From Pseudophaeobacter sp. EL27 (GTDB lineage Bacteria; Pseudomonadota; Alphaproteobacteria; Rhodobacterales; Rhodobacteraceae): 64,000 bases of DNA. Location: NCBI RefSeq assembly GCF_900313025.1, contig NZ_OMPQ01000015.1:9775-73774 (forward strand). Direction: 5' to 3'. The position numbers and the translations under genes were made by a program. The notes beneath the pieces were generated by a model. The model had not been told where the DNA came from. It made no database searches and saw only the letters and a program-made list of their open reading frames with translations. Within the stretch, counting starts at the first letter, position 1. Each line of letters begins with the position of its first letter. Below, one piece after another: positions 58,142-63,927 of the stretch.

Positions 58142-58960
58142 TTATTTGGGTGTGCTATGTTCCGAGAGAACCTGGTCCATACTGATCGAAGGCTGGTCAC
58201 AACCGGCTTCACCAACGATCTTGGCAGGAACGCCGGCAACGGTTTTGCAGGCAGGTACTTCTGCCAGCACAACCGAGCCCGCAGCGATGCGGCTGCAGTG
58301 GCCAACCCGGATATTGCCCAAAACCTTGGCCCCAGCCCCGATCAGCACGCCATCCTCGATCTTGGGATGGCGATCTTCTTCTTCCTTACCGGTGCCGCCC
58401 AGGGTCACCGAATGCAGCATCGAGACATTGTCCCCCACCACAGCGGTTTCGCCGATCACGATGGAATGGGCGTGGTCGATCATGATGCCCCGGCCAATTC
58501 TGGCACCGGGGTGAATATCAACGCCAAAGATTTCGGAAATCCGCATCTGGAAAAAGAAGGCCAGATCCAAATCGCCCTGTTTCCACAGCCAATGTGCAAT
58601 GCGGTAAGCCTGAACGGCCTGGTATCCCTTGAAGTAGAGGATCGGCTGCAGCAGTCGGTGGCAGGCCGGGTCACGGTCATAAACCGCCATCAAATCGGCG
58701 CGCGCAGCGGCAATCAGGTCAGGATCCGAGGCAAAAGCCGTGTCTACAATTTCCCGCAGGATCACCATCGACATCTCATTGGAGCAGAGTTTTGCGGCGA
58801 TCCGATACGACAGCGCCTTTTCCAGCGTCGGATGATGCAGGATGCAGGCATGGATCAGCCCGCCCATAAGCGGCTGTTTTGAAACGGCTTCCTGAGCCTC
58901 GGTCGAAATTTGTTCCCAGACCGGGTCCAGGGGCGAAACGGCTGTGCGCGTCTTGATCAT
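58142..58960 (-). CDS. cysE: Serine acetyltransferase
   Basis: This 272-residue protein acetylates serine for cysteine synthesis. The helical N-terminal domain (LDPVWEQISTEAQEAVSKQP) is followed by a left-handed beta-helix (VDIHPGARIGRGIMIDHAHSIVIGET, VSMLHSVTLGGTGKE, VRVGHCSRIAAGSVVLAEVP-like repeats). ATG 58960 gives the standard start MIKTRTAVSPLD; the longer frame from 59020 is atypical. cysE next to the GTA cluster is an arrangement I associate with Rhodobacterales. Confidence 0.95.
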   Translation of the reverse strand: MIKTRTAVSPLDPVWEQISTEAQEAVSKQPLMGGLIHACILHHPTLEKALSYRIAAKLCSNEMSMVILREIVDTAFASDPDLIAAARADLMAVYDRDPACHRLLQPILYFKGYQAVQAYRIAHWLWKQGDLDLAFFFQMRISEIFGVDIHPGARIGRGIMIDHAHSIVIGETAVVGDNVSMLHSVTLGGTGKEEEDRHPKIEDGVLIGAGAKVLGNIRVGHCSRIAAGSVVLAEVPACKTVAGVPAKIVGEAGCDQPSISMDQVLSEHSTPK

Positions 58961-59106
58961 GGCATGGCGTCCTCTTCTTGCCCTTAGGTTTGCATTTAGG
59001 GGAGAAAAACCCAAGCGCAAACCCTTGATGGAAAGAATTTCAAAATGGAATGGATCGCACCGGCCAAACCCGTTCTCGCCAGGAACACCATCTGGCAGAA
59101 GCGAGG

Positions 59107-59466
59107 TTATGGCTCCGCCTGCGAAATTTGCTTGCTATCCGCAGAGCGGACAAGGCGGCTGTGCAGGCCCGTCAGAACCAGTCGTAAACAGGTGATATAA
59201 TCCGGATTGTCCCAAGTGGGCTCGCTGCAAAGCGGGCCGCAACTGTGCCGCGCCGCTGCATCCAGCGAGCCATTGCCCCAGCGCGGATGCAACTGCGCTG
59301 TACGCGCAACATGCGCCGCCGCCAAACCTGCGCGGTCAAACAGCTGTTGACACAAAACGGTGCGCTCGCGTGCAGGGGCTGCAAAGAGCGCCCGTGCCAT
59401 GCTGCTCACATCCTGTGGCAAAACAGGCAGGCGCGCGTCGGTTTGATCTGGATCGTGATCCTTCAC
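59107..59466 (-). CDS. Hypothetical protein downstream of GTA gene 15
   Basis: This 119-residue soluble protein starts MKDHDPDQTDARLPVLPQDV and has a middle segment FAAPARERTVLCQQLFDRAG. It starts 17 bases after the GTA gene-15 stop and is codirectional with it, so probably cotranscribed. A small conserved gene commonly sits between GTA gene 15 and cysE (from memory). No family assigned. Confidence 0.6.
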   Translation of the reverse strand: MKDHDPDQTDARLPVLPQDVSSMARALFAAPARERTVLCQQLFDRAGLAAAHVARTAQLHPRWGNGSLDAAARHSCGPLCSEPTWDNPDYITCLRLVLTGLHSRLVRSADSKQISQAEP

Positions 59467-59482
59467 CGTACCGGACTCTCTG

Positions 59483-62400
59483 CTATTGGATGGGTTTTTC
59501 TGTCACAAATCCTGCCCCATACCGATCTGACAGCTGCGCAACCTCGACGATATCCCCGATGACTGCCGAATCTGCGCTCTGATCACCTACGCTGTAGATC
59601 CAGCTGGCGGAGTTTACCTCCAGTTCCCGCAACAGGCTGGTCCCACGCAGGATACGGATCCGGTAGGCCTCTCGTGACTCACCCAATGGAATTTCAGCAA
59701 GATCCCAACTGTCGCCTTCAATCCGGCTGCGCCGGATCCAGCTGACCGATATATCCTCGCCAAGGCCGCCGTTGAGACGCAGATGCACCGGCGCATAGGG
59801 GCGCAACCCATTGCCATCAAAGGCCTCAACCCGGTGAATATAGCTCGGGTCATCATAGCTGCGCCGCGCCGGGCCAATCCGGTAGTGGCACGCAATGCGC
59901 CGCTGTGCTGGGGTCAGCGCCACCTGGGAAAGACTGCCATCCAGCAAGACCACATAGGATCCTTCGGGCCAAAGCGCTGGCATCAGCCCATCACTGCCCA
60001 ATTGCCCGCGCAGGCGGCCCCGCAGCATATAGGTGTTGTCACCAACCAGATCTGCCTCGCGAAACTGGAAAACTTCCCAGTTGTCGCTGCTGCCATCCCC
60101 GATGGCCACTGCATTGGCCCCATTCAAAACCGCCAAACTGTCGCGGCTTTGCAAGGCACCGGCGATCAGTTTCACCTGCAGATCACTCCCCAGATCCCAA
60201 CGTCCCGGCGCAGCGGCCTGCAGCGGCGTTTCAGTCAGCCCTATCGTGCTGCGCGCTGCAATGATCTGTTCCAGGCTGTAGTCAGAATCGCTCCGCGCGG
60301 CATAAAGCGCCACGGTTCCGGGCCAGGGAGAGGCGCTCACCGCCAGATGCGGTGCATGGGGGACTTCCTCGCCCGTGAGCAATGGCAGGTCCATGAACAG
60401 TGGCAAGACCGGCAGAGGCGGTTCAAAGGCCTGTCCGGAGGGCAACACGTCAGAGATTTCCGCCGGCAGGTAGACCTCAGGGTCGACCCGCACCGCATCT
60501 ACGATCTGCGACGCCCCCAGCTCCATCCGGTCGAGACGATAGTGCTGAACAAGGGAGGGTCCCCCCGCTGGCTCCTGAGAAGGTTCATCTGCGGGTTCAG
60601 ACTCCAGCTCACTTGGCAGCGAAACAACATCCCCCACCCCCAGATGCAACAATGAGGGCGGAAGCACAAAGCCGGCGGTGTCACGCGAGACCCGCGCCTC
60701 CGCCAGCCAACGTTCGACGATCTGGCGGGCCTCGCTTTGAGTCAGGACCAGGGCCAGCTCGCTGGAGCTCACTGAATGGGTTGTCTCATCCGGCAGGCTC
60801 GCCTCGACAGCTCCGATATCATAGGCCGCCCCCCACTCGATAAACCGCAACCGGACCCGCCCCGCCAACTCAGCCTCGGCCTCGCGGGTCACCTCGATGG
60901 CGCCGTCAAGTTCCTCCTCATCCACCAGCCCCTGTGCTGAGAGCACATGCTGACTCTTTCCCAGGCGCAGACGGAATTCCAAAACCCCATTGCGCTCAAT
61001 GGTGTCAAAGCCATAGCGCAGGGCCAGAGGTTGCAGTGCTGCACGCGCCTCAGCCACGTCGCTGACTCCATAGCCGTGCACAATCCCGTACAGCTGAGAG
61101 GTGTCAATCCAGGTCTGCCCGGCAGTCCTGCAGATCTCCTCCACCACAGAGGCCAGGCTGCGCTGCCCAACGCGGCCATTCAGCCAATGGCCACGCGGGT
61201 AGTTTTCCCCATCGCTCCAGACGGCATCAAGACTGGGAAAGGCCGGAAAAGGCCGGGCATCCCAGGTCCAGACATAGGCATTGCTCATATCCAGCATCCG
61301 CCCCGCGTACTCGCTCGACACCGGGTTATTGTCCCCCTCTCCCCAATAGCCCAGAACCGCACGCAGATATTGCAGCTGCATCAGATCATCCCGCTGACCA
61401 TTGGAATAGCGCGGCAATTGCGATTCAGAGCTTTTGGGGTCGAGAAACTTGTTCGGCTGATTGGTGCCTTTGTCTATCGCAGCGCAGCCCAGCTCGGTGA
61501 ACCAGATCGGCTTTTTCTGCGGCTGCCAGGCGGTCGGCAAGGCCTGACGCACCCCACCGATGCGCTCGTGATGCTGGTTGCCCCACCAGCTTTTCAGATC
61601 CTTGTAGCGCCAGATCCAGGGTTCATAATGGGCCTCGTCAGTGATGGGCGTCCGGATCTGCGCCTCCACGGGCTCAGTTGAGTGGTAATACCAGTCATAG
61701 CCCTCACCGCCCTCAACATTGGCACGCAGATAGTCCAGATCATAGATGCTGGGCGCACCCGCGACACGATCCAGATGATGCCTGCCCTCGCACCAGTCCG
61801 AGACCGGCATGTAGTTGTCGATGCCGATAAAATCGATATTGCTATCGGCCCAGAGCGGATCAAGGTGGAAATAGCGCTCGCCCTGCGGGCTTTGGTAACC
61901 CCAGTACTCGGACCAATCCGCCGCGTAGCTGATTTTGGCGTCAGGCAGCAACAGGCGGACCTGGGCCGCCAGATCCCGCAGCGCCGCAACCGCAGGGAAC
62001 CCGGAAGCCCCGCGGATCTGGGTTAACCCCCGCATCTCTGAACTGATGCAAAAGGCCTCGACCCCGCCTGCCGCCGCACAGAGCGCAGCATTGTGTAATA
62101 TGAACCGCCGCAATCCCCAGTCTGCTGCACCGCTATAGATGACCTCGCCCGCCAGAACAGTGAAGTCCGCCGCCATGGCGCCGCCCATGAAGGCCGCGAC
62201 CTCAGCTTCGGCAGCCAGAGATTGGTCCGGGCTTCCCACCAGTCCCGGTGCCTTTGACAGCGTGATGCGCCCCCGCCAGGGCAGGGACGGTTGGCTCTGT
62301 GCATCGCTCCAGGGATCGGGAAGATCATTGCCCGCCACCTTATCCATCAGGATAAAGGGGTAAAACATCACCCGCTTACCAGCGGCTTGCAACGCCTGGA

Positions 62401-62827
62401 TCGCCTCAATGACCGCCGCATCAGCAGGCGTGCCCCCATAAAGCGCCCTCCCCTCATCATCCTCAGGCACCAGATCGGCACTGCTGCGCGTCTCGCCCGA
62501 GACCCGCCAGGGCATCGGAATCCCCTCTGTCTGTTTCTGCTCCACCTTTGGTTTGATCTGACACTGCCCACAGCGCAGATCATTGCCAAACCAGGAGACA
62601 ATCAGCGAGGCGGCGTCGCAGCTGGGCAGCTCGTTCGAAAGCGCCTCCAGAGAGGTTGCAAGATCGCTTTGACCTGAGGCGGTATGGCTGTTACCGCCCT
62701 TTGCCTGCCCCGGCCCGATGCCATAGTGAACCGCAGTGGTTGCCAGCGCATATTCGCCCGTGCCCGGCATCAAGGCCACCCCCTGCACCAGCTGACCGAG
62801 ATCAAAGGGGTAATCCGAGCGATCCAA
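59483..62827 (-). pseudogene. GTA gene 15 host-specificity protein, N-terminally truncated and fused to gene 8
   Basis: The 1114-residue product matches the GTA TIM-barrel tail-tip protein (rcc01698 type): VQGVALMPGTGEYALATT, VSWFGNDLRCGQCQIKPKVEQ, YGGTPADAAVIEAIQALQAAGKRVMFYPF, SYAADWSEYWGYQ, WFTELGCAAIDKGTNQPNKF and a long beta-rich C terminus. Full-length relatives have, from memory, about 200-300 more N-terminal residues. Here the frame begins at TTG 62827 (MDRSDYPFDLG), directly continuous with a gene-8 segment. The remainder is open to its normal stop, suggesting the deletion is recent or that the gene is still translated. Confidence 0.85.
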
Positions 62828-62982
62828 GACCTCCTCAGCCCCAAGAACCGCATAGATCTGCGGCGGCTGCCAGTTGGCATGGCATCAAACAGATTGCTGC
62901 CCAGGGCGGCCGTTACCGCAGTATCACTGGTCAGATGTTGAAAAACCGACTGCTGCGGGGCAGCGGCAAGCGCATAGGTCAT
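62815..62982 (-). pseudogene. GTA gene 8 (DUF3168 tail terminator) remnant, frameshifted
   Basis: The start MTYALAAAPQQSVFQHLTSD overlaps the gene-7 stop (ATGA) and continues to NLFDAMPTG. The expected next part, QPPQIYAVLGAEEVLDRSD, is present but in another frame, indicating a one-base loss near 62870. The remaining two thirds of the gene are missing; the sequence runs straight into gene 15. Confidence 0.75.
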
Positions 62983-63326
62983 GGGGCCAGCTCCTCGAGA
63001 CATTGACATGTAAGATAGCGCCTGCCCGGATCGGCCTCGCCAACCGCTTCGATGCGAAACAGCCGCTGACCTTGACGAAACCGCTGACCAGGGCGTGGAC
63101 GCGAGGCGCTGCCCTGTGGCATCGCCCGCAGGGTGATCCGGTAGCGCTGCAAGGAGAGGCTGGCGCCCTCCTGGCCAGAGGTGCGACCGGTTTGTGATTT
63201 CAGCTCAGCCCAGATCTCTCCCAGTGGCGCCCAGCTCTCGCTGTAGCCGCCGGATCCGTCGCTGACCCGCTGTGGATCTTCCAGCACCAACCGCCGGTTG
63301 GTTAGGGGCACTGCGCCGCCCATCAT
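62979..63326 (-). CDS. GTA gene 7, head-tail closure protein
   Basis: This is a 115-residue protein of the phage head-closure/adaptor family: LTNRRLVLEDPQRVSDGSGGYSESWAPLGEIWAELKS and YRITLRAMPQGSASRPRPGQRF, then YLTCQCLEELAP. In the GTA cluster it follows the gene-6 connector. Its ATG lies inside the 3' end of the gene-6 frame. Confidence 0.85.
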   Translation of the reverse strand: MMGGAVPLTNRRLVLEDPQRVSDGSGGYSESWAPLGEIWAELKSQTGRTSGQEGASLSLQRYRITLRAMPQGSASRPRPGQRFRQGQRLFRIEAVGEADPGRRYLTCQCLEELAP

Positions 63327-63927
63327 GACCCACCCCTGCCGAGAGCCGCAACAGGCGATACCGCTCGATCAGGCTGACAACCCCAAAGGGCATGCAGCCC
63401 CCATGCAGGGCTGTGTCATCGCGGTACTCGTAATAGTGGGCGGCAAGCATCAAAACCGCCTGAGCCAGATCATGGGGCAAGTCCTCCCAGCTAGCGGCAA
63501 AGCCTGCAGCTAAGGTGATTTCCAGCCGGGCTCCTTTTTGCAAAACAGGCAGGCTTGCTCCCCGTGGGTGCAGGCGTGGTTGCTGGCTGTCAGGCTCCAC
63601 CCAAATGGTATCGGGTGCTAAAACCGTTGTATCACCATCTGCATCAATCAGAGTTGCTGAGGTGAACGTAACAACCGGGGCAATCGGCACCGATGCCCGA
63701 TCCGGGTGACGCCATCCCGTGATCACCCAAAGAAAATCCCGCTGTAGCAGGACTTTGCCGGTTCGGCTTTCGATCGCCGCCAGGGCAGCCCGCAGAAAGC
63801 CGGTCAAAACACTGTCCTGCAGGTCATCTTCGCCAAAGCCGGTCCCCAACCGCAGATGTGCCTTAAAGGCCTCCAGCGGCAGGGCCGTGTCCGGCAGGGG
63901 TGTCACTTCGCTCAACATCATCATCAA
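63205..63927 (-). CDS. GTA gene 6, head-tail connector (phiE125 gp8-like)
   Basis: This 240-residue frame matches the GTA head-tail connector: LPLEAFKAHLRLGTGFGEDDLQD, LRAALAAIESRTGKVLL, and DLAQAVLMLAAHYYEYRDDTALHGG with FGVVSLIERYR. Relatives end soon after RYR, at about 200 residues; here the frame runs another 40 residues through the start of gene 7 (121-base overlap). A TGA in the adjacent frame sits exactly at the gene-7 start, so a one-base change in the G-run near 63330 probably extended the frame. Confidence 0.8.
   Translation of the reverse strand: MMMMLSEVTPLPDTALPLEAFKAHLRLGTGFGEDDLQDSVLTGFLRAALAAIESRTGKVLLQRDFLWVITGWRHPDRASVPIAPVVTFTSATLIDADGDTTVLAPDTIWVEPDSQQPRLHPRGASLPVLQKGARLEITLAAGFAASWEDLPHDLAQAVLMLAAHYYEYRDDTALHGGCMPFGVVSLIERYRLLRLSAGVGHDGRRSAPNQPAVGAGRSTAGQRRIRRLQRELGATGRDLG

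Follow-up and report, generated by a model that had tools for sequence, protein, structure and literature searches.

A minus-strand open reading frame of the marine bacterium Pseudophaeobacter sp. EL27 (59483-62827), in which the gene 8 (g8) text ending in VLDRSD runs straight into the gene 15 (g15) text YPFDLGQLVQGVALMPG, raises the question of whether a gene transfer agent (GTA) cluster has lost its middle part here, and what became of the remainder. GTA clusters derive from phages and serve to carry DNA from one cell to another. Positions refer to the window, the whole stretch of 64,000 nucleotides that was analyzed (C14:9775-73774), which lies on a contig of 592 kb (C14) in a genome of 4.55 Mb, assembled into 16 contigs and rated 100% complete. 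The cluster is oriented from right to left and continues past the right edge of the window. A gene-by-gene check against Roseobacter sp. MED193, which together with Pseudophaeobacter makes up the congeners recovered here, located remnants of g1, g2, g3, g5, g6, g7, g8 and g15 in RcGTA order at a single locus. The locus is an RcGTA-like (Rhodobacter capsulatus type) cluster with an internal deletion whose gene order and host context are those of its relatives, with fabF-mltG upstream and cysE downstream, and the flanking genes are intact. It shares with RcGTA-like clusters the g1-g15 order, the Pfam families, the single position between mltG and cysE and purifying selection on the lineage. It differs from them in three internal deletions and two frameshifting 1-base deletions. 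RcGTA-like clusters, one copy each, are present in 57.5% of surveyed alphaproteobacterial genomes, and purifying selection on them has been reported in Rhodobacterales (PMC6821227). The intact MED193 cluster (L002/L116) has the same neighbors and a g15 protein 82% identical over the remnant, but its g1-g15 are all open.

Table 1. Cluster features, lesions and 3' neighbors located within the window
Feature	Position	Strand	Basis or remark
cysE-type serine acetyltransferase	58142..59020	-	intact, 3' neighbor of the cluster
Small ORF between g15 and cysE	59107..59466	-	conserved in MED193
g15 (host-specificity/tail protein) remnant, codons ~212-1321	59483..62815	-	tblastn with MED193 g15; Pfam
Deletion junction D3 (~4.68 kb lost)	62810..62819	-	5-8 base direct repeat, GCTCGGAT-like
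g8 (tail terminator) remnant, codons 1 to ~57	62815..62982	-	gene-by-gene check and congener alignment
1-base deletion (frameshift) in g8 remnant	62860..62869	-	alignment with six congeners
g7 (head closure, PF05521), complete and open	62979..63326	-	ORF, gene-by-gene check, Pfam
g6 (connector, PF05135), homologous to 63334	63205..63927	-	ORF, gene-by-gene check, alignment, Pfam

BLASTN against the intact cluster of MED193 returned two blocks (L002 4114-5303 and 9975-13553) that adjoin in the window, where g8 after codon ~57 is joined to g15 from codon ~212. Missing between them, at ~4.68 kb, are the 3' portion of g8, the complete genes g9-g14 and g15 up to codon ~211. The fusion and the missing genes had been proposed in a preliminary description of this DNA; both were borne out by this comparison with an intact relative, and the breakpoint falls inside the interval 62800-62840 named there. 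That description had also suggested a search for g9-g14 elsewhere in the genome. When the corresponding MED193 segment (L002:5200-10100) was compared with the whole genome, the only matches were the two flanks of D3, overlapping by 8 bases. The hub family PF09931, which is present in 22 of the 23 other genomes of the family, had no match anywhere in the genome, and the g9 and g12 proteins had no match there either; the lost block, the hub, g9 and g12 are present in all ten intact congeners. The g15 remnant keeps its GTA_TIM, Phage-tail_3 and Rcc01698_C domains and, as the preliminary description had stated, stays open, for more than 1100 codons. It has no native start: owing to a 1-base deletion ahead of D3 the g8 ATG is not in frame with the g15 segment, which leaves just an internal TTG. 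Alignment with the congeners located a further 1-base deletion at ~63333-63340 that removes the stop of g6, the frame of which overruns into g7. Because the g8 frame is lost before the junction and the g6 stop is lost as well, the g8-g15 fusion is not a working one.

Two further deletions lie just beyond the window. A 201-bp in-frame deletion in the large terminase gene g2 takes out ~67 codons at the start of the RNaseH-like nuclease domain, and a deletion of ~1.66 kb joins codon 325 of the portal gene g3 to codon 199 of the capsid gene g5 out of frame, so that g3.5, the protease gene g4 and the capsid gene up to its midpoint are lost. The junctions of the three large deletions are located at C14:72587, 74447 and ~75910. 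All five lesions are deletions, and together they remove about 6.5 kb of the ~14.3 kb cluster (about 45%). The earlier reading of the locus as a real RcGTA-like cluster with a g8-g15 deletion thus stands, although not as the result of a single deletion. Its view that the head-tail joining genes remain and only the tail is missing had to be abandoned, as g2, g3, g4 and g5 are damaged, g8 is frameshifted and g6 lacks its stop. From capsid to tail tip the structural gene set is incomplete, with g3.5, g4 and g9-g14 absent and g2, g3, g5, g8 and g15 truncated. The GTA-Hunter rule (PMC6821227) sets a minimum of six RcGTA-like genes that overlap by 60% or more and lie within 8 kb. In the gene-by-gene check, coverage of at least 60% was found for g1, g2, g3, g6, g7 and g15 and lower coverage for g5 (50%) and g8 (<45%), and the GTA-Hunter tally itself depends on the genes that its classifier counts. 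The expectation that functional particles do not form gains stronger grounds than were first given for it, as the head genes are broken too: particles would not be expected, the lesions having removed or broken the terminase nuclease, portal, protease, capsid, tail tube, tape measure, distal tail, hub and peptidase. A long g15 reading frame, or the presence of several GTA genes, does not imply a working GTA. The GTA holin (PF11351) was considered as a marker for the rest of the GTA system and proved uninformative, as MED193 with its intact cluster also has no match.

Complete clusters were found in ten of the 11 congeners, the remaining one being Pseudophaeobacter leonis. Strain 306 (L019 9930-10060; L114) resembles EL27 in having an internal deletion that ends in g15 between intact flanks, but it is one large deletion with other endpoints (g3 codon ~230 to g15 codon ~330) on a separate branch. 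Two more broken loci were detected among 73 assessable Rhodobacterales loci, a set restricted to loci with enough upstream sequence and picked by g15 similarity, in which total losses and losses of g15 go uncounted; apparent gaps in L012, L060, L067, L070, L075 and L027 were set aside because of nearby contig ends or short flanks. In Ruegeria atlantica CECT 4292 (L053 8356-9420), g2 is interrupted with a change of frame and its codon ~229 is joined to codon ~19 of g15, while a relative, A3M17, has g3-g15 complete (94% identity on the g15 side). In the isolate Alg231_04 (L026 5930-6060), codon ~154 of g2 is joined to codon ~71 of g9, the left-hand junction not being placeable on a relative. Both have, like EL27, an internal deletion and close relatives with intact clusters, and both differ from it in the endpoints. 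As all deletion endpoints differ, the broken clusters are independent, and the decay of the EL27 cluster, the history of which is well resolved, is a familiar kind of loss that has occurred several times independently. The LDRIVVAVDP-coding stretch that is hit by the 201-bp deletion of EL27 is also where g2 of R. atlantica is broken.

That five lesions should all lie in one cluster, and be known from assembled contigs and not from reads, could suggest that the chromosome carries a full cluster of which the assembler skipped pieces. We consider this very improbable. The short sequences common to both flanks of the large junctions are ~10-13 bases (g2), 3-6 bases (g3-g5) and 5-8 bases (g8-g15) long, as estimated from the sequences of relatives and not from ancestral bases. 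Repeats of this size are shorter than any assembly overlap and cannot collapse the graph; the genome is rated complete, the contig is long, and the lost 4.7 kb is on no other contig. From the syntenic 60 kb of MED193, 52 ORFs were compared with the window and 26 of them located there; an internal stop was seen in only one, a doubtful ORF of 113 codons. None of the clear syntenic genes is frameshifted; it is in the GTA cluster, then, that the lesions concentrate. The same short direct repeats point to replication slippage or microhomology joining as the probable origin of the deletions. A single ancestral loss shared with P. leonis might also be considered, as the P. leonis deletion encloses two of the three large deletions of EL27. 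This is rejected by the tree and very improbable: in trees of control and of GTA genes (P. leonis cysE was left out) EL27 is placed within a group of otherwise intact species, together with MED193, G004, G006, G008 and G011. P. leonis falls outside this group, at a node that has a bootstrap of 100 when all genes are used, and under a shared loss intact clusters would have to be regained in at least five species. The deletions would accordingly postdate the split of the EL27 lineage from its intact sister species. In P. leonis 306, cysE (L114, G001:C113:8000-24000) has an in-frame stop at about codon 16, where relatives have Trp, which is either a mutation or a sequencing error.

How recent the loss is can be judged from the surviving codons. 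Nucleotide branch lengths of 0.145 for the GTA genes versus 0.067 for the controls hinted at relaxed selection on the remnants, but a codon model custom-written for this analysis assigned the excess mostly to synonymous changes. Omega on the EL27 branch was 0.096 versus a background of 0.114 (LRT 2.92, p 0.09); values of 0.12 and above were increasingly disfavored and omega=1 was rejected (LRT 432). No nonsense codon was present in 2417 surviving codons, which sets a 95% bound of ~87 neutral substitutions since the loss, or 1.2% of sites. With no relaxed selection and no nonsense codons, the loss appears recent and nearly the whole branch was under purifying selection. The EL27 locus is thus very probably a case of recent, deletion-driven pseudogenization of an RcGTA-like head-tail cluster in a Roseobacter of the Pseudophaeobacter group. 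The low omega (0.10) and the open frame of the g15 remnant would also be compatible with a retained role, the trimmed cluster still functioning, for instance, through the TIM-barrel and tail domains of g15 or through g6/g7 serving another purpose. We give this reading very little weight: omega is averaged over a branch that is mostly older than the loss, the remnant lacks a native start, and the joint between portal and capsid pieces does not keep the frame. Because the loss came late on the branch, no residual function can be read from the open g15 frame, and the remnant is probably a passive leftover that has had too little time to gain stops.

Why the cluster was lost is a separate matter. 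GTA release kills the producing cell, and inactivated clusters might therefore have been favored by selection, swept and then eroded further. Four independent, recent losses at the tips of the tree, with the surviving parts elsewhere under purifying selection, would fit; neutral loss with a deletion bias gives the same pattern, and a single hit would already bring the benefit, whereas the cluster has five. Selection is a possible but doubtful cause. The broader proposal that selection acts repeatedly and actively against Rhodobacterales GTA clusters at the tips of the tree, with adaptive, recent losses by several deletions in short succession and older cluster-less lineages leaving few descendants, appears unlikely. 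A recent loss after purifying selection would fit a trait that is mostly kept and occasionally lost at the tips. For the question of why bacteria keep GTAs despite the death of the producer, EL27 with its intact sister species and the three independently broken relatives provide natural pairs with and without the cluster.

In the part of the literature covered, neither the EL27 cluster nor the decay of a GTA in Pseudophaeobacter was found to be described. The exact g8-g15 junction was absent from the viral contigs, and the plasmid collection returned only distant Paracoccus and rhizobial matches. Many GTA clusters (L130-L209) are included among the viral contigs of IMG/VR as though they were viral. 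Some Ruegeria and related loci (L062, L033, L023, first 1300 bases) have unrelated ORFs instead of g2 before g3, as if g1-g2 were separated from the other cluster genes. A second GTA_TIM copy, perhaps from a GTA-like prophage or a second cluster, is present in some relatives (G007:C38:16518-20076, G018:C10 and G014:C1:1275219), with a hub gene alongside in G007 and G018 and an internal stop in G014. A record titled Nocardioides marinus (L020, JAHVJD010000001.1) carries a Leisingera-like GTA g15; its title is seemingly wrong or the assembly contaminated.
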